The notes under the pieces: model-generated | Database searches by the model: none | What the model saw: only the letters and a program-made list of their open reading frames with translations | What the model was told of the DNA's origin: nothing | Part shown: positions 8,556-23,283 of the stretch, in pieces | How the letters are laid out: every line of letters starts with the position of its first letter | How positions within the stretch are numbered: position 1 is the first letter of the stretch | Source: a virus | Reading direction: 5' to 3' (one strand) | Virus record (IMG/VR): IMGVR_UViG_3300035698_003461 | Span: 1-24,409 of that record | DNA length: 24,409 bases | Made by a program: the position numbers and the translations under genes

Positions 8556-8921
8556 TTATTTTTTAATGTTACCAGCTATTACCTCTTCGGTCTCTGGTAT
8601 TGTAAATATATGTGGAGCTTTTATCAAAACTTTCTCACCTTTCTTATAATTCCTAGAAGCTGGAAATTCAAACGTAAGCATAGTTTCGTACTTCTTAATC
8701 CTACTAAGTTTCATCGGCATCAACTTTTCCTGATCGTCAGCAGAACCTACTAAGAGCATAAGTGACATCAGCTCACTTCGTTTCATAATAAACTCCTTAT
8801 CATCTAAGGTGAACTTGATGACATTGCAGTCTTTAACTTTCTTCTCTTTAGACCAGTTCACTTCTGCTTCTAACTTACCGTCTAATGTTTTGAGTTGAAA
8901 TTTTCTATGTTCATTTAACAT
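8556..8921 (-). CDS. Unknown small late-operon protein
   Basis: This 121-aa protein has basic and beta-strand-rich stretches (KFQLKTLDGKLEAEVNW, KKGEKVLIKAPHIFTIPE) and a short hydrophobic helix MSLMLLVGS near residue 55. No catalytic or metal-binding motif is seen. Its ATG (8919-8921) overlaps the end of groES by 7 nt, indicating translational coupling and late expression. Function unknown. Confidence 0.6.
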   Translation of the reverse strand: MLNEHRKFQLKTLDGKLEAEVNWSKEKKVKDCNVIKFTLDDKEFIMKRSELMSLMLLVGSADDQEKLMPMKLSRIKKYETMLTFEFPASRNYKKGEKVLIKAPHIFTIPETEEVIAGNIKK

Positions 8922-9184
8922 TTTCTTGCTAGTATATCAGCTGGTTTAAGTAGAAGATACTCAATTCCTTTCTCTTCTATTTTCTCACCAGCATATTCAT
9001 TAAAGTATATAATATTACCAACCTCTAAATCATAATCATAAATGATTTCTTTATTACCGAAGTCAACTATCTCAGCTTCTGGTAGGACTACATCATCGTC
9101 ATCTGAGCTTAATATAATACTTGATTTAGTCTTATCTTGCTTCTTTTGTACGGCTAATATTCTTTCGCCTATTGGTTTTATCAT
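8915..9184 (-). CDS. groES: GroES-like co-chaperonin (Cpn10)
   Basis: This 89-aa protein is close to the usual 90-97 aa of Cpn10. It opens MIKPIGERILAVQKKQDKTK, matching the conserved start of GroES (I/R-P-L-x-D-R-V-x-V). The mobile-loop hydrophobic tripeptide that docks on GroEL apical domains appears as IIL near residue 24 (IVL in E. coli GroES). The roof-loop region is replaced by an acidic DDDD stretch. The closing segment VGNIIYFNEYAGEKIEEKG then YLLLKPADILA matches 'VGDIVxFxxYxGxxx...YLxxxxxDILA'. It would cap a GroEL ring, presumably the phage GroEL encoded at 12223-13755. The gene is not adjacent to groEL: portal and three small genes intervene. Its ATG overlaps the TGA of the upstream gene (ATGA), and GGAGG about 10 nt upstream is one of the few Shine-Dalgarno-like sites here. 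Confidence 0.88.
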   Translation of the reverse strand: MIKPIGERILAVQKKQDKTKSSIILSSDDDDVVLPEAEIVDFGNKEIIYDYDLEVGNIIYFNEYAGEKIEEKGIEYLLLKPADILARKC

Positions 9185-12222: not shown

Positions 12223-13755
12223 TTATTCTTTATTTGAAACAATAGCCTTAGTTGTGATAAATAAGTTAGCTATTGATACAGCGTTTTGTAGTGCGGTACG
12301 TGTGACTTTAACTGGATCAATGATCCCAGCTTCAATCATATCTACATATTTATTATTTAAAGCATCATAGCCTTTTCCAGTCTTTAGTATCTGAGCTACG
12401 ACTTCCTTACCGTCAGCGTCACAGTTCTCAGCGATGTACTCTGCTGGTTTACTAAGAGATTCGTACAGTATGTTTGCCCCCAGTTTGTCCTTATCGCTAA
12501 TATTTGCCCCACCAAGGGCTTTGGAAGCCATAATTAGAGCCACACCACCACCTGGGACTATACCTTCGTCTATGGCACATTTGGTGGCATTTAACGCATC
12601 TTCTATTTTAAACTTAATCTCTTTTATCTCACTCTCAGTGGCAGCACCTACTTTTATGACAGCCACACCGCCTGTAAGCCTAGCTAATCTGTTAGCTATC
12701 TTCTCAGTTTGAAATGGTGTTTCCTCTGCTTTAAGCTGTTGCTTTACTATCTTAATACGGTCTTTCACGTCACCGTCACCGTCAATTATGACTGTTCTGT
12801 CACTGTATGAGGTAACCTTAACTGCTAATCCTAGATCTATTATCTCTAAATCTTCAAATTTAATGAAGTTATCTACCACCTCAGTACCTGTTAAGGCAGC
12901 TATATCATCTAAATACTCTCTTTTATCGGTAAATCCAGGGGTTTTAATGGCTATTACACCAAGTACACCTCTGATACTGTTAGCTACTAGCGTCTCAATC
13001 ACTGGTATTTCGAAGTCATTGGCTATGATAACAAGTTTTCTTTTCTCCCTGCTTACCTTTTCAAGTATAGGTAATATCTCAGACATCATTGATATCTTCT
13101 TATCAACTAACAGGAATAAAGGTTCATCATACTCAGCTTTCATGGATTCATTATCAGTAATCATATACGGTGAAATGAAACCTTGATCTATCTCCATGCC
13201 CTTAACAACTTCTTTCTCAATACCTAGGCTCTTACCGTCTTCAACTGTAACCACTCCGTCTTTTCCTACTTCATCTAAAGCCTCAGCTATGACCTTACCA
13301 AGTTCAGAACTACCTGATGATATGGTTGCTATCTGTTCTGTTTCTTCTTTGGTAGACACTGGCTTTGATATTCTCTTTAATTCTTTTAAGACAATATCAA
13401 GTCCTACATTGATACCTTTCCGTATCTCAATAGGTTTAATATTTAAATCACTATCATTTTCTTTATTTACTATGTGTTGAGCTAATACAGTAGCCGTAGT
13501 AGTACCGTCACCAGCCACGTCATTGGTTTTACCAGCTACTTCTTTGACCAACTCAGCACCAATATTCTCAAACTTATCTTCGAGTACAATAGCCCTAGCT
13601 ATGGTGACACCATCATTTGTGATGATAGGTTTAATTCCATCTAAGATAATGTTGTTACCACTTGGTCCAAGTGATAGCTTAACTATGTCAGCTAATCTGT
13701 TAAGACCTAATACAATAGAATCTTTAGCTTCTTTTCCTTGCTTTATTTCGTTCAT
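12223..13755 (-). CDS. groEL: Phage-encoded GroEL-type chaperonin (Cpn60)
   Basis: This 510-aa protein has unmistakable GroEL signatures. LADIVKLSLGPSGNNIILDG lies near residues 21-40. TNDGVTIA contains D48 (equivalent to Asp52), and AGDGTTTATVLAQ contains D83 (equivalent to Asp87); both are needed for ATP hydrolysis. Apical-domain motifs (FISPYMITD, DKKISMMSEILPILE, IKTPGFTDKR) are present, then LARLTGGVAVIKVGAATE, the IEDALNAT segment with the Asp398-equivalent, and EGIVPGGGVALI. It ends near VSNKE and lacks the C-terminal Gly-Gly-Met tail of bacterial GroEL (~548 aa). The protein should form an ATP-driven folding cage with the GroES at 8915-9184. It sits between terL and portal, so it is a late gene, most plausibly folding virion proteins. 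There is no Shine-Dalgarno. Confidence 0.96.
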   Translation of the reverse strand: MNEIKQGKEAKDSIVLGLNRLADIVKLSLGPSGNNIILDGIKPIITNDGVTIARAIVLEDKFENIGAELVKEVAGKTNDVAGDGTTTATVLAQHIVNKENDSDLNIKPIEIRKGINVGLDIVLKELKRISKPVSTKEETEQIATISSGSSELGKVIAEALDEVGKDGVVTVEDGKSLGIEKEVVKGMEIDQGFISPYMITDNESMKAEYDEPLFLLVDKKISMMSEILPILEKVSREKRKLVIIANDFEIPVIETLVANSIRGVLGVIAIKTPGFTDKREYLDDIAALTGTEVVDNFIKFEDLEIIDLGLAVKVTSYSDRTVIIDGDGDVKDRIKIVKQQLKAEETPFQTEKIANRLARLTGGVAVIKVGAATESEIKEIKFKIEDALNATKCAIDEGIVPGGGVALIMASKALGGANISDKDKLGANILYESLSKPAEYIAENCDADGKEVVAQILKTGKGYDALNNKYVDMIEAGIIDPVKVTRTALQNAVSIANLFITTKAIVSNKE

Positions 13756-13766
13756 ATTTGCTGTTT

Positions 13767-15136
13767 TTATAAATTGTTACCATAATAACTATTAAAATTA
13801 CCTGGATTAAGACTGTGCTTAGTCTTCCACTCTGCTAGTTTCTTCTCAACTGGACTAAGTGGTAATGGTGTCTTGGCTTCATGTAAGTATTGTAAGCCGT
13901 AAGATATAGCATCGGCACAATGGTCGTCCATATCACTATTTAAGTCTTCTGGTTTCTTCTCATCGTGGATAAGTGTTGGAATGGAACGAATAGAATTTAA
14001 ACAGGTACTAAAGAATAACATCTTAGGCTTGGTTTCTTCTTGTCTTAGGTATTGGTGGAACAAACCCCACCCAGCCATTCTGTTCTTTGGTGCTGGTTCA
14101 GCCATAACACCTTTACGAGCATAAATATCAGCAAATGTCTCTCCATGTCCTGTTTTATCAAAACAACTAGAATCCATTACAGTGAACCAATATGTTTCAC
14201 CTTCACTAAGTCTGGCTATTTCTTTGGCATTAACATCAGCGTCAACCCCTGCCTTATAATATTCTCTGTACCAGTGAATGTTACCATCGTAGTCTATTGC
14301 TCCCCATAAACATGCTGTTGGAGCTGTCCTACCGTGATCTATACATCTGATCCGTCTCCAGTTATCTGGTATCTTAAATGGGATAGTGACATGAACTTCC
14401 TTGTCCCACTCATCAAAATACATTCCCTCAAAGACATCCCAATTACCATGTAGTAACATTTTCTGTTCTTTCTCAGGTAATCCTTCCAAACGATTAACAT
14501 ATTCTGGGTCTTCTTCCATTAAAACAAGATTATCGAATACCTTTGATGGTATAAACTGCTTGGTAAGCTTTGTCTTTTCATCTACGTAAGTCTTATACGG
14601 CTCCTTACCAGCAATGAAACGATCATAAAAGTATACATGACCTATGTTTCCAGGATTAGAAGCATATCTTATACATTTGAACACTGTCTTATCAGCACAA
14701 CGACAACGAGATTTTAGGTATTCTATCTGAAACTCAGTGAAATGAGTTGCCTCATCAAATCCTAAGTAGGCATACTGAGCACTCTGGTAAGCGTAGACAG
14801 CCTTGTCGTTGTCTAGGTAACCAAAGTCTATAATAGCACCACTTGGGAACGTCCATCTATGTTTCAGCTCTGAATACTTACCGCCCATTGAGGGGTAGAG
14901 TTCATGTGATCTAAGAATAAGAGATTTTTCTAATTCTGGATAACTTCTTCTAAAAAGAACTGCCTTATAGTTTTTCTTATCAACTTGTCTTAAAGTATCT
15001 AGTAAAAGGAAATCTGATTTACCTCCACCAGCTGCTCCACCATAGAACATCTCAAACGCACTAGACGCTAAAGCCTTTTCTTGCGATCCAGGATTTGGTC
15101 GCCAACAATTCTCTTTTTTTTTACTTCTTCTTGCAT
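13767..15136 (-). CDS. terL: Terminase large subunit, apparently expressed by -1 frameshift
   Basis: TerL is the packaging motor: an N-terminal ATPase and a C-terminal nuclease. The continuous frame begins at an ATG at 15050, only three residues before Walker A (GGAAGGGKS), which would remove conserved N-terminal residues. The frame stays open upstream and encodes CWRPNPGSQEKALASSAFE, typical of TerL, but holds no ATG, GTG or TTG there. The only good start is ATG 15136, which overlaps the previous stop (TAATG). It reads MQEEVKKK in the zero frame and then meets A AAA AAG. A -1 shift at 15113 joins the frames, giving a 456-aa product. Walker B is FDEATHF (D128/E129). Nuclease-domain acidic residues lie in RCIDHGR and DMDDHCADAISYG. 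An assembly indel in the A9 run is the alternative explanation. Confidence 0.87.
15081..15119 (-). promoter_or_regulatory. Programmed -1 frameshift cassette in terL
   Basis: In the minus sense the heptamer A AAA AAG (15119-15113) sits exactly in the X XXY YYZ phase of the ORF starting at 15136. A 7-nt spacer (15112-15106) follows. Then comes a stem-loop (15105-15081) with arms TTG-CGA-CCA and TGG-TCG-CAA, two single-base bulges and a 5-nt AATCC loop. The zero frame ends at TAG (15070-15068), giving a 22-aa peptide. The same heptamer is used for -1 frameshifting in E. coli dnaX. Transcriptional slippage on the nine-A run could give the same product. Confidence 0.62.
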
Positions 15137-15895: not shown

Positions 15896-15924
15896 ATTGT
15901 ACTCCTATAAATCTATTTTGTCAA
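15896..15924 (-). promoter_or_regulatory. Late (morphogenesis) promoter, minus strand
   Basis: Reading the minus strand, the -35 TTGACA (15924-15919) matches consensus exactly. A 17-bp spacer precedes the -10 TACAAT (15901-15896; 5 of 6 match). Transcription would begin near 15889 and run into the terminator at 15831-15808, then terS. It is the only good minus-strand promoter I found upstream of terS. Confidence 0.68.
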
Positions 15925-16035: not shown

Positions 16036-16201
16036 GACACTTACCTCCCTATATATAGGGGAGGTAAATGACATCTATCATAAATTCACTGGTAAGCGTT
16101 ATTTCCGAACACCTATTCCACCGCTAAATTTAGGTAAATAACACTTACCCAGGTAAGCGTTGGTAAGCGTTGGTAAATGAGTAACTGAAAAGACACTTAC
16201 C
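16036..16201. repeat. Iteron/operator cluster GGTAA(G/A)(Y)GTT
   Basis: Nine copies of a ~10-bp box lie here. The plus-oriented ones are GGTAAATGAC (16063), GGTAAGCGTT (16091, 16152, 16162), GGTAAATAAC (16133) and GGTAAATGAG (16172). The minus-oriented ones read (G/A)ACACTTACC on the plus strand (16036, 16140, 16192). Three (16152, 16162, 16172) are in exact 10-bp register. A tenth copy (16330-16339) overlaps the -35 of the early promoter. The first pair forms a large palindrome centred on TATATATA (16041-16067). This is the usual look of an iteron origin or a multi-site operator array. Confidence 0.72.
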
Positions 16202-16210
16202 GACCCTATT

Positions 16211-16225
16211 TCGGAACTGTTCCGA
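16211..16225. promoter_or_regulatory. 15-bp palindromic operator candidate
   Basis: TCGGAAC-T-GTTCCGA is a perfect 7-bp inverted repeat with a 1-bp centre. It touches the -35 region of the first early promoter. A related half-site, TTCCGAACA, is at 16103-16111. It fits a dimeric repressor site of the LexA/CI type; the binding protein is unknown. Confidence 0.45.
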
Positions 16226-16253
16226 TGGCATACTGTCAAGTTTATGGTATAAT
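16225..16253 (+). promoter_or_regulatory. Early promoter P1 (extended -10)
   Basis: TATAAT (16248-16253) is preceded by TGG, an extended -10. ATGGCA (16225-16230; 4 of 6 match to TTGACA) lies 17 bp upstream. The -35 abuts the 16211-16225 palindrome. It points toward the early genes. Confidence 0.5.
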
Positions 16254-16276
16254 ATACATTACCTAAATTAAGCCAA

Positions 16277-16305
16277 TTTAATATCTCAATATTCTATGGT
16301 ATAAT
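16277..16305 (+). promoter_or_regulatory. Early promoter P2 (extended -10)
   Basis: The sequence TATGGTATAATATA repeats that of P1 52 bp upstream. TATAAT is at 16300-16305 with an extended TGG. The -35 is weak (TTTAAT, 16277-16282), so activity would depend on the extended -10 or an activator. Confidence 0.45.
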
Positions 16306-16310
16306 ATATG

Positions 16311-16356
16311 TTATCCACAACCAACTGTTGACACTTACCACCCCATCTGGTACACT
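16311..16356 (+). promoter_or_regulatory. Early promoter P3 with upstream DnaA box
   Basis: A consensus DnaA box TTATCCACA (16311-16319) is followed after 8 bp by TTGACA (16328-16333), a 17-bp spacer ending in TGG, and TACACT (16351-16356). An iteron-like box GACACTTACC (16330-16339) overlaps the -35, so an iteron-binding protein would block it. The predicted start is near 16363, leaving a ~32-nt leader before the first early gene. Confidence 0.72.
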
Positions 16357-16394
16357 GTAATCAGTTAAGAAACTAACAAACTTAAAAATAATCT

Positions 16395-16541
16395 ATGACA
16401 AAGTTCCATCATAAAACTACTTCTCCAGCAGAAACAGTTGAGGAGATAAAGGCTAGTATTAAGAAAAGCAACGATGATTGGGAGAAAGATCACGGTGAAC
16501 CGTATAAGTTTGTACCACTTAAAAATAAGAAGAGTCTATGA
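16395..16541 (+). CDS. First early protein, unknown, 48 aa
   Basis: This 48-aa hydrophilic protein (MTKFHHKTTSPAETVEEIKA...) is the first gene behind the early promoters. It has a helical middle and a basic tail (PLKNKKSL). Its TGA overlaps the next ATG (ATGA), so it is coupled to the zinc-finger protein. First genes of early phage operons are often host-takeover or regulatory proteins; nothing in the sequence shows which. Confidence 0.55.
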   Translation: MTKFHHKTTSPAETVEEIKASIKKSNDDWEKDHGEPYKFVPLKNKKSL

Positions 16542-16696
16542 CCACCAACAACTCTAATCCCTACTACACTTGCCCCTTCTGCCATAAAGAACATCAAGGT
16601 TTATACCCTAAATGCCAAGAATGTGCAGATAATAACGTCTACAATCGCAAGACTAAGTTCATTAAGAATCCTAATAAATCTAACAAGCCTTTTTAA
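16538..16696 (+). CDS. Small zinc-ribbon protein
   Basis: This 52-aa protein has CPFC at residues 12-15 and CQEC at residues 26-29, a CxxC-x10-CxxC pair typical of a minimal zinc ribbon. A basic tail follows (NRKTKFIKNPNKSNK). It overlaps the previous gene by 4 nt (ATGA) and ends 1 nt before the next ATG. DNA, RNA or protein binding is plausible. Confidence 0.6.
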   Translation: MTTNNSNPYYTCPFCHKEHQGLYPKCQECADNNVYNRKTKFIKNPNKSNKPF

Positions 16697-16697
16697 T

Positions 16698-16946
16698 ATG
16701 ATAACCAAATCAATAAAAGAATATAACGAAGCAAATTATACTAATATCCCAGATGATATGTGGAAACTATTATTTGACCTATACTGGCTAAGGTTTAAAA
16801 AACCAGGGGATCAGTGGTACGAGCTAACTGACTACCTAAGAGATAAGCTCATAGATGATGGTTTAGGTATCCAATATACTAAAGATGATGTAGTAGTCAC
16901 ATTGAAACATAAGGTCTTCTCAATGAAAGAATCATTAAATAAATAA
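16698..16946 (+). CDS. Unknown early protein
   Basis: This 82-aa protein starts MITKSIKEYNEANYTNIPDD. I chose the ATG at 16698 over an in-frame ATG at 16623 because the latter would overlap the zinc-ribbon gene. The protein is helical, with an aromatic core segment (WKLLFDLYWLRFKKPGDQWY). No family is recognised. It is followed after 1 nt by the 197-aa gene. Confidence 0.58.
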   Translation: MITKSIKEYNEANYTNIPDDMWKLLFDLYWLRFKKPGDQWYELTDYLRDKLIDDGLGIQYTKDDVVVTLKHKVFSMKESLNK

Positions 16947-16947
16947 T

Positions 16948-17541
16948 ATGAACAAAGATATTCAAGCAATCAAAGATGAATCCCTAGCCCTACTCCCTGA
17001 TACCAGCAAACCTATCCTAGTAGCCACAGAAGCCGATTACGCTTTAGAAGGTGATCGTATCAAAGTATTAAAGGCTTATGTTAAGACAGTAGACGATAAG
17101 AGATTAACCTGGACTAGACCTATGGATGACGCTAAGAAACTTATCATGGCTGACATAAGAACGATCACTGATCCCTTAAATGATTATGTAGACAACTCTA
17201 AGAAAGCCATGTCAACATGGTTCACCACTAATCAAGCTAAGTTAGACGCTGAACAAGCAGTAATAGACGCTAAAGCAGTAAAAGGTAGCACCGAAGCTAT
17301 CATAGAAGTCCCAGTAGTCAATGAAACCATGACAATCAAAGGTGAAACTGCTACAATAACAGTGAAACAGAAGATGAAGTGGCGTATAACAGATGAAACT
17401 CTTATCCAGCGTGAATACCTACACGTCAACTCTGCCCTAATAGATGAGAAGATCAAAGATACCCTCATCGCAGAAGACGGCTCATGTCACATTAAGGGTA
17501 TTGAAGTCTATTACGAGTATCAAGATCCAAGTGTTAGGTAA
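16948..17541 (+). CDS. Phage early protein resembling recombination-associated proteins
   Basis: This 197-aa protein has a helical N-terminal half (residues ~20-110: KVLKAYVKTVDDKRLTWTRP, KKLIMADIRTITDPLNDYVD) likely forming a coiled coil. The compact C-terminal part contains WRITDETLIQREYLHVNSAL, IDEKIKDTL and IKGIEVYYE. The C-terminal pattern '(W/F)xxxDxxxxPREYLxxDxxxIxxxxK...IxGxxxxxE' recurs in phage proteins found beside ssDNA-annealing and recombination genes (DUF1351-like group), so I expect a DNA-metabolism accessory. No SSAP gene is visible in this window. The resemblance is from memory and only suggestive. Confidence 0.6.
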   Translation: MNKDIQAIKDESLALLPDTSKPILVATEADYALEGDRIKVLKAYVKTVDDKRLTWTRPMDDAKKLIMADIRTITDPLNDYVDNSKKAMSTWFTTNQAKLDAEQAVIDAKAVKGSTEAIIEVPVVNETMTIKGETATITVKQKMKWRITDETLIQREYLHVNSALIDEKIKDTLIAEDGSCHIKGIEVYYEYQDPSVR

Positions 17542-17553
17542 CTTTACCTAACC

Positions 17554-17693
17554 CCCCACACACCTGGTCAGTCAGTAGAGTATTAAGAAAGAACGTCTTT
17601 CTTAATCCGTTGGTATTACTGTGCTAGACATAACACGATAGGATAGCCCGACTATCCACTGGCAAATCTTTACTGCTGACTGGCTGTGTGGGG
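17554..17693 (+). ncRNA. Multibranched structured RNA element
   Basis: This 140-nt region contains nested helices. CCCCACACA (17554-17562) pairs with TGTGTGGGG (17685-17693). After a 4-nt bulge, GTCAGTCAGTAG (17567-17578) pairs with CTGCTGACTGGC (17673-17684) over 12 bp with two G-U pairs. Inside are a perfect 10-bp hairpin with an AACGT loop (17582-17606), a 6-bp GGATAG/CTATCC hairpin with a CCCGA loop (17641-17657), and a weaker GTG/CAC hairpin (17621-17636). G-U pairs occur in the plus sense, matching the early transcript. It is not a tRNA cloverleaf: there is no CCA end, anticodon arm or TPsiC sequence. No known family is recognised. Confidence 0.62.
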
Positions 17694-17723
17694 AGTTATT
17701 AAGTAATCCTTAACAACTAATAT

Positions 17724-17867
17724 ATGAAACTAAACCGTAAAACAAAAGCCTTCTACCGTAACTTCCTAAGACAGTTTGATACTAAGACACTACTGATGGC
17801 ACTCCTATCACTGTTCCTAGTATTATTTTTCATGGCTCTTGGTGATGTTTACTTTAATCTAAACTAA
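17724..17867 (+). CDS. Small single-pass membrane protein
   Basis: This 47-aa protein has a basic N-terminus (MKLNRKTKAFYRNFLRQ), so the N-terminus is predicted inside. One hydrophobic segment follows at residues ~23-40 (LLMALLSLFLVLFFMALG), then a short C-terminal tail. It follows the structured RNA by 30 nt and precedes the second DnaA-box promoter. Candidate functions such as superinfection exclusion or membrane targeting are guesses. Confidence 0.6.
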   Translation: MKLNRKTKAFYRNFLRQFDTKTLLMALLSLFLVLFFMALGDVYFNLN

Positions 17868-17888
17868 TCATACTGATTAGCTTAGACC

Positions 17889-17934
17889 TTATCCACAGTC
17901 AACCATTTACCGTGTTACCGAAAAATGGTATACT
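17889..17934 (+). promoter_or_regulatory. Internal early promoter with DnaA box
   Basis: A consensus DnaA box TTATCCACA (17889-17897) is followed by 8 bp, then -35 TTTACC (17906-17911), a 17-bp spacer ending in TGG, and -10 TATACT (17929-17934). ATTTACC (17905-17911) and GTGTTACC (17912-17919) look like iteron half-sites overlapping the -35. The predicted start is at 17941, the G of a GTG start codon. Confidence 0.62.
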
Positions 17935-17940
17935 GTAAAA

Positions 17941-18102
17941 GTGGAAACAAAAAAACAAAAACTATCTGTCCTGTATTACCGTATTACGGAATACAATAAC
18001 ACTCATAGCTACAACTGGAGACGCTATGATAAGTATTACGATAACCTAGTAAGAGAAGCAGATAGATTAGCCAGAGAAATAATTAAAATATATGAACGAT
18101 GA
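17941..18102 (+). CDS. Small unknown protein, GTG start, possibly leaderless
   Basis: The 53-residue frame opens GTG-GAA-ACA and ends in TGA, overlapping the next gene by 11 nt. It has no internal Met, so GTG is the only reasonable start. The protein is basic, Tyr/Arg-rich and helical (YNWRRYDKYYDNLVREADRL). The predicted transcription start coincides with the GTG, so the mRNA would be leaderless. Confidence 0.52.
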   Translation: METKKQKLSVLYYRITEYNNTHSYNWRRYDKYYDNLVREADRLAREIIKIYER

Positions 18103-18382
18103 AGAATTTACTTCTTTTCAGCATGTTGAAGGGAAGCACAGTTTAAAAATAGATGAGTCTGAAGTAGTAGAAGGACCATCACTTTTCTTTCACACTGATG
18201 AGAAGACTAAAAAATATGATACATTCGTTATCGACATAGACGATGACAAATTCTTAGAAGATATCAGTATAGATAAGTTCTTTGCCTTAAAAGAGTTATT
18301 CGATGTTGCTTTTAAGCAACTTGAGAAAAGACAGACAATCACAAACATATTTGGTGAGGATATGAAAAGAGTTAAAACATAA
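18092..18382 (+). CDS. Unknown acidic early protein
   Basis: This 96-aa acidic protein begins MNDEEFTSFQHVEGKH. It has a beta-rich centre (YDTFVIDIDDDKFLEDISID) and a C-terminal helix (KELFDVAFKQLEKRQT). Its ATG lies inside the end of the preceding gene in another frame, preceded by the A-rich AATTAAAATAT. No family is recognised. It is followed by the 18396-18497 RNA/terminator element. Confidence 0.58.
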   Translation: MNDEEFTSFQHVEGKHSLKIDESEVVEGPSLFFHTDEKTKKYDTFVIDIDDDKFLEDISIDKFFALKELFDVAFKQLEKRQTITNIFGEDMKRVKT

Positions 18383-18395
18383 TAAACAACGCTAT

Positions 18396-18497
18396 GCTTG
18401 TCGGCATCAAACAAATAAATAGTAAGTCCCACATTAGAGGTTACAGTTCTTCTGAGCTGTGCCCTGACAAGCCTAGTGTGGGACTTTTTGTTTAGTT
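18396..18497 (+). terminator. Intrinsic terminator with pseudoknot potential
   Basis: A 14-bp stem (arms 18424-18437 and 18473-18486, one G-U) is followed by TTTTTGTTTAGTT. Its large apical region holds a 7-bp hairpin, ACAGTTC/GAGCTGT (18443-18460, one G-U). GACAAGC (18466-18472), just inside the stem, is perfectly complementary to GCTTGTC (18396-18402) upstream, forming a pseudoknot. It precedes the RepA-type ATPase gene, so it may attenuate expression of that gene. Confidence 0.62.
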
Positions 18498-18504
18498 AAA
18501 ATAT

Positions 18505-19764
18505 ATGACCCCTCAAATAAAACAATTCTTAAAACTTGCGTTAGAGGATAAGTATTACCCTCCACCTATTTCAAAAGATAGTCCTGTTTTTAAATTAGAA
18601 AAGTTATCAGAGAAACTAAAACCTAATGAGAAGGAAACACTCAATCTTATAAAAGAGATTAAGAAATATGAGAAGGCTGGTCTAGTACCAACTGATAGGG
18701 TAAAAGATTCCCTAGCTAAAATCCTCCCCTACCTAGAGGACAATGTTAAATTTATCAAAACAGAACACTTCTCTACTTTCATCAAGAAGACTGCTATTGA
18801 TGACTCATTTGTAGTTGATAGGTTAGTACCTGAAAACGGTATCACTTCTATCACAGCTGACTCTGGAAAAGGTAAATCTTTATTTGCTCTTATCCTGGCC
18901 AAGCATATTGGTACAGGGTTAGACTTCTTCGACTTTAAGGTTAAGAAGAAAAAGGTACTCCTAATAGATCAGGAGATGAGTCCCAACATAGTCTTAAAAC
19001 GCTGTCAGAGCATCGTAGACAAGGATAACTCTGTTTCTGGTGGTCTAGTACCAATACCAGACATAGACGTTGCTACGGAGCAATTTATAAATATTGAAAA
19101 GGATTATGATGAGCTTGTAGAACTGATTAAGAATAATAAAGATGAGGTAGTAATATTTGATACCTTCTCCACTATCCATGACGGAAGGGTCGAGAACAGT
19201 TCAGAAGATATGGCCGTCATAAATAAACTCTTACTTAACCTTATCAAGGATACTGGTATCACTGTAATCTATCTTCATCACCATAGGAAACTTGGTAAGG
19301 GAGAGAGCATGGGACAGTCCAGCTCTCGTGGATCAACAGAGATTATAGCTAAGGTAGCGTCTCATTTATTACTAGATTCTAAGCAGAAGATTGATGCCTT
19401 TACTGAAAACTCAGTCCTAGAGATATCAGTAAAACAGGAGAAGAGTAGAGACGGTGCTTGCGTAGGAGAATTTGCATTAGCGGTTACGCATGATAAGGAC
19501 ACTAAGAAAATAAGTTGCGAGTTCATAGGTAACGAGGTAATCGAGAACGCTAAAGTAGAAGCAGTTAAGAATTTAGTCTTAGCAACATTCAAGTCTACTG
19601 ATAGGAACGAGATTAATATACAAGATATCAAAAAGGAACATGAGATCACTGGTTCACAGGTTAACCTAAGGCATAGGAAGAAAGCCTGCGATCAGCTCAT
19701 AGAGGAAGGTATTATAGGACAGGAGAAAGTCGGTAAGAGTTTTATTTATAAGTTGGTAAGCTAA
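18505..19764 (+). CDS. RepA-like RecA-fold ATPase/helicase
   Basis: This 419-aa protein has an N-terminal ~95-residue helical region. The P-loop core follows: Walker A ADSGKGKS (residues ~118-125), VLLIDQEMSP (151-160), Walker B EVVIFD (~214-219), a VIYLHHHRK sensor-like segment (~254-262) and SSSRGSTEI (~272-280). A C-terminal winged-helix-like part closes it (residues ~350-419, LRHRKKACDQLIEEGIIGQE). This order matches the AAA_25/RepA (RSF1010 RepA-type) hexameric replicative helicases of plasmids and phages. It would act at the phage origin, probably the iteron region at 16036-16201. It follows a terminator-like element by 8 nt, and its leader (TTAGTTAAAATAT) has no Shine-Dalgarno. Confidence 0.82.
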   Translation: MTPQIKQFLKLALEDKYYPPPISKDSPVFKLEKLSEKLKPNEKETLNLIKEIKKYEKAGLVPTDRVKDSLAKILPYLEDNVKFIKTEHFSTFIKKTAIDDSFVVDRLVPENGITSITADSGKGKSLFALILAKHIGTGLDFFDFKVKKKKVLLIDQEMSPNIVLKRCQSIVDKDNSVSGGLVPIPDIDVATEQFINIEKDYDELVELIKNNKDEVVIFDTFSTIHDGRVENSSEDMAVINKLLLNLIKDTGITVIYLHHHRKLGKGESMGQSSSRGSTEIIAKVASHLLLDSKQKIDAFTENSVLEISVKQEKSRDGACVGEFALAVTHDKDTKKISCEFIGNEVIENAKVEAVKNLVLATFKSTDRNEINIQDIKKEHEITGSQVNLRHRKKACDQLIEEGIIGQEKVGKSFIYKLVS

Positions 19765-19765
19765 T

Positions 19766-20116
19766 ATGAAAACAACTAAAAAAGATTTTGAACTGTTTAA
19801 AAAAGAATGTGAGAAATGGATTAAGAAACTGGGGCTAGATAATAAGAGAGTAACTATATACTGGTCTGACCTAGAACCTGAAACCGCTGCGTGTATATAC
19901 AGAGATCTTTTACAAGCTAGTGTTGAAATACATCTTTGTAAAGACTATGAAAGTCACACATTAACAGATGAAAAGATTAAGGGTCACGCTAAACATGAAG
20001 TAATCCATTTACTCTTAGCTGATTTATCGGTATATGCTGGTAGTAGATATGTAACACAACAAGAATTACAAAAATCAGAAGAAGAATTAGTCCGTAAGCT
20101 AGAGAAACTACTCTAA
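19766..20116 (+). CDS. Putative HExxH zinc metallopeptidase-like protein
   Basis: This 116-aa protein contains HEVIH (residues 77-81) followed by LLLADL, the zinc-binding helix of gluzincin/SprT-type metalloproteins. A Glu-rich C-terminus (ELQKSEEELVRKLEKLL) could supply the third ligand. The N-terminal half contains TIYWSDL followed by ETAACIYRD, matching small phage-encoded metallopeptidase-like proteins. The substrate is unknown. The gene starts 1 nt after the ATPase gene and is followed by the third DnaA-box promoter. Confidence 0.65.
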   Translation: MKTTKKDFELFKKECEKWIKKLGLDNKRVTIYWSDLEPETAACIYRDLLQASVEIHLCKDYESHTLTDEKIKGHAKHEVIHLLLADLSVYAGSRYVTQQELQKSEEELVRKLEKLL

Positions 20117-20118
20117 CC

Positions 20119-20164
20119 TTATCCACAAGCAACAGTTGACAATACCAATACAATAAAGTAACAT
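20119..20164 (+). promoter_or_regulatory. Third DnaA-box promoter
   Basis: A consensus DnaA box TTATCCACA (20119-20127) is followed after 8 bp by TTGACA (20136-20141), a 17-bp spacer and TAACAT (20159-20164). GACAATACC (20138-20146) resembles the iteron box GACACTTACC. The predicted start is near 20171, 22 nt before the ATG at 20193. The box begins 3 nt after the metallopeptidase stop. Confidence 0.65.
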
Positions 20165-21087: not shown

Positions 21088-21354
21088 ATGGAACAATTTA
21101 CTAAAAAAGAAGTACCGACCGATAACCCGATAAGAAAGTATCAGGAGGATAATGATACTACTTTTCGTGCTATGGCAAAGTTATGCGGTATCCATGAGAA
21201 CAGCATACAGAATATAGTTGCCATGAATAGAAAGCAGATGTTAGGTCTTAGGGTAGGAACTCTTATCAAGATAAACAAAGCCCTTAAACTCGATTTAGAG
21301 AGTTATATATTAGATGTTAAATTAAAAGGAAAACATTATGACAAAAACAATTAA
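21088..21354 (+). CDS. XRE-like helix-turn-helix DNA-binding protein
   Basis: This 88-aa protein has a central helix-turn-helix-like block (residues ~26-70). It contains TFRAMAKLCGIHENSIQNIV, followed by helices ending in RVGTLIKINKALKLDLESYI, the standard layout of a Cro/CI-type XRE domain. No dimerisation or peptidase domain follows. It is the only clear candidate in this window for the protein that binds the iteron/operator boxes at 16036-16201 or the palindrome at 16211, though nothing links them directly. It overlaps the next gene by 17 nt. Confidence 0.7.
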   Translation: MEQFTKKEVPTDNPIRKYQEDNDTTFRAMAKLCGIHENSIQNIVAMNRKQMLGLRVGTLIKINKALKLDLESYILDVKLKGKHYDKNN

Positions 21355-22617: not shown

Positions 22618-23166
22618 ATGATTAACGAAAAGCTCAATGTTGGTATGGATTCTATCGCACCATTACCAAAAGACATTTACCAGTGTGAATTGTTAGATGT
22701 ATCAATGGAGGAAAGACCAACTTATGACACAAGAAACCTACCTGAAGACAGTCAAGAAATGCAGAAAGTATTAAACTTCCAGTTTACTGTTCTTGAAGGT
22801 AAAGACGGTGATGATGACCTAAGAGGACGTAACATTTGGTCAAACTTTATTCCTACATTCTTCTTCGTAAGTAAGAAGGGTAAGAATAAAACAATGAGAA
22901 TTGTTGAAGCTATTACTGGAACTGAACTAACTGAAGAAGAAAAGAAGTCTGGAATAGACGAAACATTCTTAAACTCTCTAGTTGGTAAGCAGTGTCGAGT
23001 ATCAGTTGAACCAAAAGTAAGTGGTGATAAGACTTACAATAACACTACTGATTGGCTAAAGGCTAACGATCAACTTGAAGCACTAACTGACGAAGAGAAG
23101 GAAAAAGCAGAAGTTAAAAAGGTAATAGATGATATTAATGTAGACGAAATATCACTTTACGACTAA
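22618..23166 (+). CDS. Putative ssDNA-binding-like replication protein
   Basis: This 182-aa protein begins with a beta-rich segment (YQCELLDVS, then NFQFTVLEGKDGDDDLRGRN and IWSNFIPTFFF). A centre with ITGTELTEEEKKSGIDETFL and LVGKQCRVSVEP follows. It ends in an acidic tail (IDDINVDEISLYD). The beta-barrel-like core plus acidic C-terminus resembles DUF669/SSB-like phage replication proteins, whose tail recruits partners. The assignment is tentative; I see no exact SSB motif. It lies after the 413-aa gene and before a strongly structured RNA (23180-23283). Confidence 0.5.
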   Translation: MINEKLNVGMDSIAPLPKDIYQCELLDVSMEERPTYDTRNLPEDSQEMQKVLNFQFTVLEGKDGDDDLRGRNIWSNFIPTFFFVSKKGKNKTMRIVEAITGTELTEEEKKSGIDETFLNSLVGKQCRVSVEPKVSGDKTYNNTTDWLKANDQLEALTDEEKEKAEVKKVIDDINVDEISLYD

Positions 23167-23179
23167 TAATTAGTTATAG

Positions 23180-23283
23180 AATCCCTAATTGTATACGAGC
23201 AATTGGGGGTTTACTAAGGTGTAGGTAGCAAATATTGTGTTGTTCGTTTAACCCGCATGCTCAATTACCTACATCTTAGTAAA
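23180..23283 (+). ncRNA. Tandem-hairpin structured RNA, possible kissing loops
   Basis: Hairpin 1 (23180-23211) pairs AATCCCTAATTG with CAATTGGGGGTT over 12 continuous bp including two U-G pairs. Hairpin 2 (23210-23283) pairs TTTACTAAGGTGTAGGTA with TACCTACATCTTAGTAAA over 18 bp with one G-U, around a 38-nt loop. All wobbles are in the plus (transcribed) sense. GAGC in the first loop region (23197-23200) is complementary to GCTC in the second loop (23259-23262), and ATTG/CAAT can close an inner stem. No U-tract follows, so it is not a simple terminator. It lies 11 nt before the next ATG. Confidence 0.6.

Follow-up and report, generated by a model that had tools for sequence, protein, structure and literature searches.

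A DnaA box in fixed phase with predicted promoters of a tailed phage and of Patescibacteria chromosomes

The virus record IMGVR_UViG_3300035698_003461 of IMG/VR (24,409 bases, analysed at its full length and referred to below as the window) contains three predicted promoters, P1 to P3, each of which carries the 9-mer TTATCCACA, an exact copy of the bacterial DnaA box consensus, 8 bp upstream of its -35 hexamer. As read from genome sequences, the same architecture is a chromosomal promoter class in Patescibacteria and recurs in many viral contigs. We consider it rather probable that host DnaA, placed at boxes near -48, activates the early operons of the phage as it would a regulon of the host, and we infer the binder and the activation as well as, from position and gene content, the early timing. 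A broader proposal would be that a whole class of Patescibacteria uses DnaA as a broad activator through one stereotyped site located 8-10 bp (or one to two helical turns further) upstream of the -35 hexamer, at lexA, rpoB, greA and many other genes, and that phages adopted this design for their early genes, thereby coupling infection to the host replication initiator. In our judgement, this broader proposal is evenly balanced between right and wrong.

Box and promoter in the phage and in other viral contigs

An initial annotation of the window had described the arrangement TTATCCACA-N8-(-35)-N17-(-10) at positions 16311, 17889 and 20119, and all three sites were confirmed letter for letter (Table 1). 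A consensus box within the promoter region, as found in DnaA-regulated promoters, is therefore present three times. The exact 9-mer has only these three copies in the record, both strands counted, and none lies outside the three promoters. When one mismatch was allowed, 8 box matches were found in the window against 8.1 expected, so that near-matches are attributable to chance. Markov-resampled windows held 0.28 exact boxes each, and the combination of box and promoter was seen in none of them. A promoter-like site, defined by at most three mismatches and a spacer of 17 bp, starts at 0.13% of window positions; on this basis, the probability of three exact boxes with the full architecture was about 7e-12, a Markov estimate that is uncorrected for the free choice of the motif by the initial reader. 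The fixed phase between box and promoter that had been claimed thus lies far beyond chance.

The gaps between box and -35 hexamer read ACCAACTG at 16311, GTCAACCA at 17889 and AGCAACAG at 20119. All three sites have CAAC at box +3 to +6, a feature absent from the initial description; the longer motif TTATCCACANNCAACNNTTKACM is rare, being present in 3 contigs, and CAAC is consequently no general part of the element. P1, P2 and P3 have one weak core element each, P2 having a poor -35 hexamer but an extended -10 (TGGTATACT). The leftward promoter at 15924 on the minus strand provides an internal contrast, since it has no box and is the best consensus of the intergenic region. A weak element in each boxed promoter, next to a near-consensus promoter without a box, would fit a need for the help of an activator.

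A scan of IMG/VR with the pattern TTATCCACA-N(0-20)-TTGACA-N(16-18)-TANNNT matched at least 120 contigs. Among the matches listed, the gap between box and promoter peaked at 8-10 bp and again at 19-20 bp; gaps of 8-10 bp accounted for 42 of the 117 non-redundant sites against 16.7 expected (chi-square p = 1.6e-10), and a periodicity of 10.5 bp was observed (Rayleigh p ~2e-12). The reversed box ACACCTATT, scanned identically, gave a flat distribution of gaps (p = 0.43). Hence the relation between box and promoter is helical and specific to the DnaA box, and the site lies upstream of the -35 hexamer on a fixed face of the helix, as activator sites do. Boxes in the opposite orientation showed gap peaks at 6 and 13-16 bp in viral contigs, and this signal was set aside, since related phage families that carry box clusters confound it. 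Clusters of opposite-orientation DnaA boxes were seen in phage families at five loci.

Relatives of the phage were also searched in IMG/VR with its own proteins. The large terminase subunit TerL had four viral relatives, one at 81% and the others at 30-36%, and the box TTATNCACA was absent from the available DNA of these four. GroEL retrieved one distant viral relative, and the helicase encoded behind P2 had no relatives in this database.

A promoter class in Patescibacteria and its likely reader

When GTDB genomes were scanned with a stricter promoter, many Patescibacteria matched, with gaps of 8-10 bp. The pattern TTATCCACA-N(0-30)-TTGACA occurred 53 times in the patescibacterium AH-259-L07 and 24 times in AH-259-L05, mostly with gaps of 8-10 bp, and the reversed control pattern was found in neither. 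In the order to which both belong, 22 of 26 genomes had a match at a gap of 7-11 bp (100 matches against 0 for the control), gaps of 8-9 bp being dominant. At the level of the class, which in our sample takes in Falkowbacteria and Buchananbacteria (both of which we take to be ABY1), matches were found in 99 of 286 genomes; they numbered at least 175 against 3 for the control, and gaps of 8 and 9 bp were the commonest. The phasing also held in the phylum-wide sample once AH-259-L07 had been removed, with 27 of 68 gaps at 7-10 bp against 8.8 expected (p = 3e-8). Outside the phylum, 22 genomes, each picked for holding one match, usually contained one or two matches and lacked phasing. In Selenomonadaceae, TTATCCACA was observed exactly 30 bp upstream of TTGACA with a conserved core in at least seven genomes.

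The 9-mer is strongly enriched in a 369-kb sample of AH-259-L07, half of which consists of contigs picked for holding matches: 56 copies were counted, whereas 9-mers of the same composition averaged 4 (14x), and 26 of the 56 sit 8-10 bp ahead of a good promoter. In a count of strong promoters, 19 of 62 bear a box in hit-bearing contigs and 0 of 16 in other contigs of the same genome. Among the genes downstream of a box, lexA was confirmed with Pfam; reading of translations added nadA, rpoB, greA (in two genomes), a Fur-like gene, a tyrosine recombinase, an aspartokinase and DUF5320 proteins. The lexA orthologues of four species (proteins 76-100% identical) keep the box at a gap of 8-9 bp while the letters of gap and spacer vary, one of the four promoters having TTATCCCCA in place of TTATCCACA. 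Such a phylogenetic footprint argues strongly that the arrangement is under selection.

The attribution of the box to DnaA, already made in the initial annotation, is supported by its identity with the bacterial consensus and by its match to boxes that the likely hosts have at some of their dnaA promoters. Upstream of some dnaA genes of the order, boxes of the same orientation stand 11 bp apart in the same phase. One locus (L477) has boxes at gaps of 7, 18 and 29 bp, the proximal one with one mismatch; another (L471) has boxes at gaps of 8 and 19 bp, the distal one with one mismatch; at the other dnaA loci of the order, the boxes are degenerate or absent. Because in-phase tandem boxes precede some dnaA genes, TTATCCACA is very probably a real DnaA box of these bacteria. 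The signature RDH[TS]T of DnaA domain IV is present wherever it could be read in the order. Overall, the sequence case for DnaA as the protein that would bind these boxes is good but not conclusive. In AH-259-L07, four copies of TTATCCACA in one orientation and at steps of 10-14 bp (L387:18766-18812) lie inside a tandem zinc-ribbon family; as a candidate oriC this cluster was rejected, since it adjoins zinc-ribbon paralogues and not dnaA.

The phage itself has a tailed phage gene set, with TerL (13767-15050), GroEL (12223-13755) and GroES (8915-9184) all on the minus strand; both chaperonin genes thus stand on one short phage contig. Its GroEL matched patescibacterial GroELs at up to 53% and those of other bacteria at 36-50%, a picture biased by the fact that most patescibacterial rows of the comparison were selected best matches. 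In a GroEL tree, the phage protein fell, on a long branch, within a clade (100/98) whose other members are 24 patescibacterial sequences and a single sequence from Chloroflexi. Because of this grouping, the host is probably a patescibacterium. TerL gave no informative host match among cultured phages, the best (41%) being to a Pelagibacter phage.

Predicted mode of action and alternatives

Setting the -35 hexamer at -35 to -30, a gap of 8 bp places the box at about -52 to -44, with its centre near -48, and gaps of 19-20 bp place it near -60. Sites near -48 and -60 are activator positions, and a distance of 8-10 bp between box and -35 hexamer would leave room for an alpha C-terminal domain of the RNA polymerase. 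We propose that the phage uses the promoter system of its host, i.e., box, 8-10 bp, TTGACA, about 17 bp and TATAAT. Host DnaA would bind the box on that side of the helix which is turned to the polymerase and would hold the polymerase more stably on the promoter, its probable contact being the alpha C-terminal domain or sigma region 4; the rightward early operons would in this way be switched on by the same activator as the host regulon. The initial annotation had suggested as activator either host DnaA or a phage protein mimicking it. The activating role stands as a proposal, an upstream position on one helical face suiting an activator better than a repressor. The mimic seems less likely, since no match to the DnaA family (domain III or IV) was found among that part of the window proteins which was scanned, in a record that is probably a fragment.

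Several observations weigh against activation by host DnaA. The assignment of the host hangs on one long-branched protein, and the sequence of the close relative at 81% does not include the early region. In some viral families, the box lies within the 17-bp spacer (TTGACA-TGTGGATAAC...), between the -35 and -10 hexamers, which is a repressor-like position. Many box-bearing host promoters have near-consensus -35 and -10 hexamers, partly because TTGACA was demanded by the search, and cores that are strong unaided might need no activator. The last two points would suit a DnaA that binds but mainly represses, or that gates transcription by its ATP/ADP state, the promoters opening when free DnaA falls. 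The dnaA promoter of E. coli, and nrdAB at high DnaA-ATP, offer a model for such behaviour, DnaA being a known dual regulator (PMC8203912). In the host order, boxes in the same phase are also present at some dnaA promoters, a setting in which DnaA usually represses its own gene. However, a single site wholly upstream of the -35 hexamer with tight phasing at about -49 and -60 has the geometry of an activator, whereas simple repressors occupy the core promoter and need no phasing, and the weak core elements of P1 to P3 argue in the same direction. We therefore regard repression or gating as unlikely, though it is the most serious of the alternatives.

The mismatch spectrum comes from a sample too thin to weigh clearly for or against DnaA: of the in-phase sites, 75 had the exact box and 10 a single mismatch, the commonest variant being TTATCCCCA and not a change at position 5. 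Changes at position 5 are the variants expected for E. coli DnaA. Compared with the DnaA boxes of E. coli, the in-phase sites accept a smaller and different set of substitutions, which could indicate that another protein, from host or phage, reads TTATCCACA beside promoters; the CAAC common to the three phage sites and the small helix-turn-helix-like phage protein at 21088-21354, recognised by reading its translation, would fit such a reader. Such a substitute for DnaA nevertheless seems improbable, because the motif is the exact DnaA consensus and recurs at dnaA promoters as in-phase tandems, and a phage-encoded reader is unnecessary as host chromosomes carry the same architecture. Direct reading of the box by RNA polymerase, as an upstream promoter element for the alpha C-terminal domains, would agree with a position of about -45 to -53 and a helical recurrence near -60, where these domains bind. 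A strict 9-mer with CC and CACA is not an A/T tract, however, and only a minority of strong promoters have the box, so we give this option very little weight. Finally, DnaA boxes occur in the origins of many replicons, and a repeat array adjoins P1, from which the boxes could be taken as parts of a phage replication origin, or as chance occurrences, with an incidental spacing to the promoters. Instead of the box cluster of a DnaA-dependent origin, the window has isolated single boxes, separated by 1.6 and 2.2 kb and all in register with a promoter, and no further exact copy. Since the chance estimate given above is minute and this phase is found again in unrelated genomes, this explanation is the least credible of all. 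Activation by host DnaA is accordingly the reading that we retain for the comparisons below.

Genome context and comparison with known systems

The record is probably a fragment of a larger genome. Its rightward replication-type genes begin at 16.4 kb, and each of P1, P2 and P3 opens a rightward operon (Table 1); from their position and gene content, these operons are presumably early and replicative. The first ATG of the P1 operon lies about 32 nt past the predicted transcription start. In the P2 operon, the predicted start coincides with the GTG of the first open reading frame (17941), for which reason the mRNA may be leaderless. The array of repeats between the divergent modules could possibly represent phage repressor operators or origin iterons. 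An extended -10, TATGGTATAATATA, is found in two copies 52 bp apart within 16243-16313, and the predicted start of the second copy falls on DnaA box 1; DnaA bound at this box could also block the upstream TATGGTATAATATA promoter. Three intergenic stretches of the plus strand are strongly structured: 17549-17697 (149 nt, -61.3 kcal/mol, z = -6.2), which lies past the P1 operon and ahead of the P2 operon, 18397-18492 (z = -5.9), which closes with a terminator-like stem and a T run behind it, and 23165-23282 (z = -6.1). None of the three matched Rfam, and the first is possibly a phage non-coding RNA or an unusual terminator.

Table 1. Positions of boxes, predicted promoters and neighbouring features in the window.
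Feature	Position	Strand	Description
DnaA box 1, TTATCCACA	16311..16319	+	gap of 8 bp to P1 -35
Promoter P1	16328..16356	+	-35 TTGACA 16328-16333, 17-bp spacer, -10 TACACT 16351-16356
DnaA box 2, TTATCCACA	17889..17897	+	gap of 8 bp to P2 -35
Promoter P2	17906..17934	+	-35 TTTACC 17906-17911, 17-bp spacer, extended -10 TGGTATACT, hexamer TATACT 17929-17934
DnaA box 3, TTATCCACA	20119..20127	+	gap of 8 bp to P3 -35
Promoter P3	20136..20164	+	-35 TTGACA 20136-20141, 17-bp spacer, -10 TAACAT 20159-20164
P1 operon	16395..17541	+	four small genes without recognised family: 16395-16541, 16538-16696, 16623-16946, 16948-17541
P2 operon	17941..20116	+	two small genes, AAA_25/DnaB-like helicase 18505-19764, small HExxH-type protein 19766-20116
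Genes downstream of P3	20193..24038	+	including probable small helix-turn-helix protein 21088-21354 (reading of translation), SSB-like protein 22618-23166 (PHROG 378)
Leftward promoter toward packaging/structural genes	15896..15924	-	TTGACA-N17-TACAAT, no DnaA box
Repeat array	16036..16340	both orientations	about ten CACTTACC / GGTAAGYG-like copies between divergent modules, the last overlapping P1 -35 and spacer

In a few model bacteria, DnaA has an established role as transcription factor of limited sets of genes. Its role as such is not new here; the new part would be the fixed single-box class, its spread in Patescibacteria and its use by phages. These three aspects were not found in the open-access literature searched, an absence that is no proof of novelty. 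The initial annotation had considered the architecture unfamiliar for phages, and indeed no description in phages was found in that literature; it is, however, no phage invention, since host chromosomes carry it. If true, our reading would provide a first sequence-readable regulon for the ultra-small, uncultured Patescibacteria, an instance in which a replication initiator serves as a broad activator through a promoter design copied by phages, and a signature linking phages to uncultured hosts.

The layout resembles that of class I and class II sigma70 promoters, in which an activator site upstream of the -35 hexamer recurs at each helical turn (about -49 and -60). Class I and class II activators are dedicated regulators that bind as dimers, whereas the presumed activator here is the replication initiator on a single asymmetric 9-mer. 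In E. coli nrdAB, where DnaA boxes also stand in the promoter region, DnaA-ADP or a low level of DnaA-ATP was reported to activate transcription by stabilising the complex of RNA polymerase with DNA (PMC8203912). That promoter combines three boxes with Fis and IciA at one locus, while one strict box at a fixed distance serves many phage and host promoters in the present case. The proposed use of host DnaA for early or replication transcription has a parallel in phage lambda, at pR and ori-lambda, where host DnaA was reported to stimulate transcription and potentially to touch the beta subunit of RNA polymerase (PMC8203912). In lambda, the protected DnaA-box-like sites are located downstream of pO (PMC3985674), and the layout described here, upstream of the -35 hexamer, in fixed phase and present three times, is thus not of the lambda type. 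At E. coli uvrB, DnaA sites were described at a LexA-linked gene (PMC6015884). There, DnaA is found at an SOS gene, whereas here the box precedes lexA itself in four species, within a fixed single-box architecture and in another phylum.

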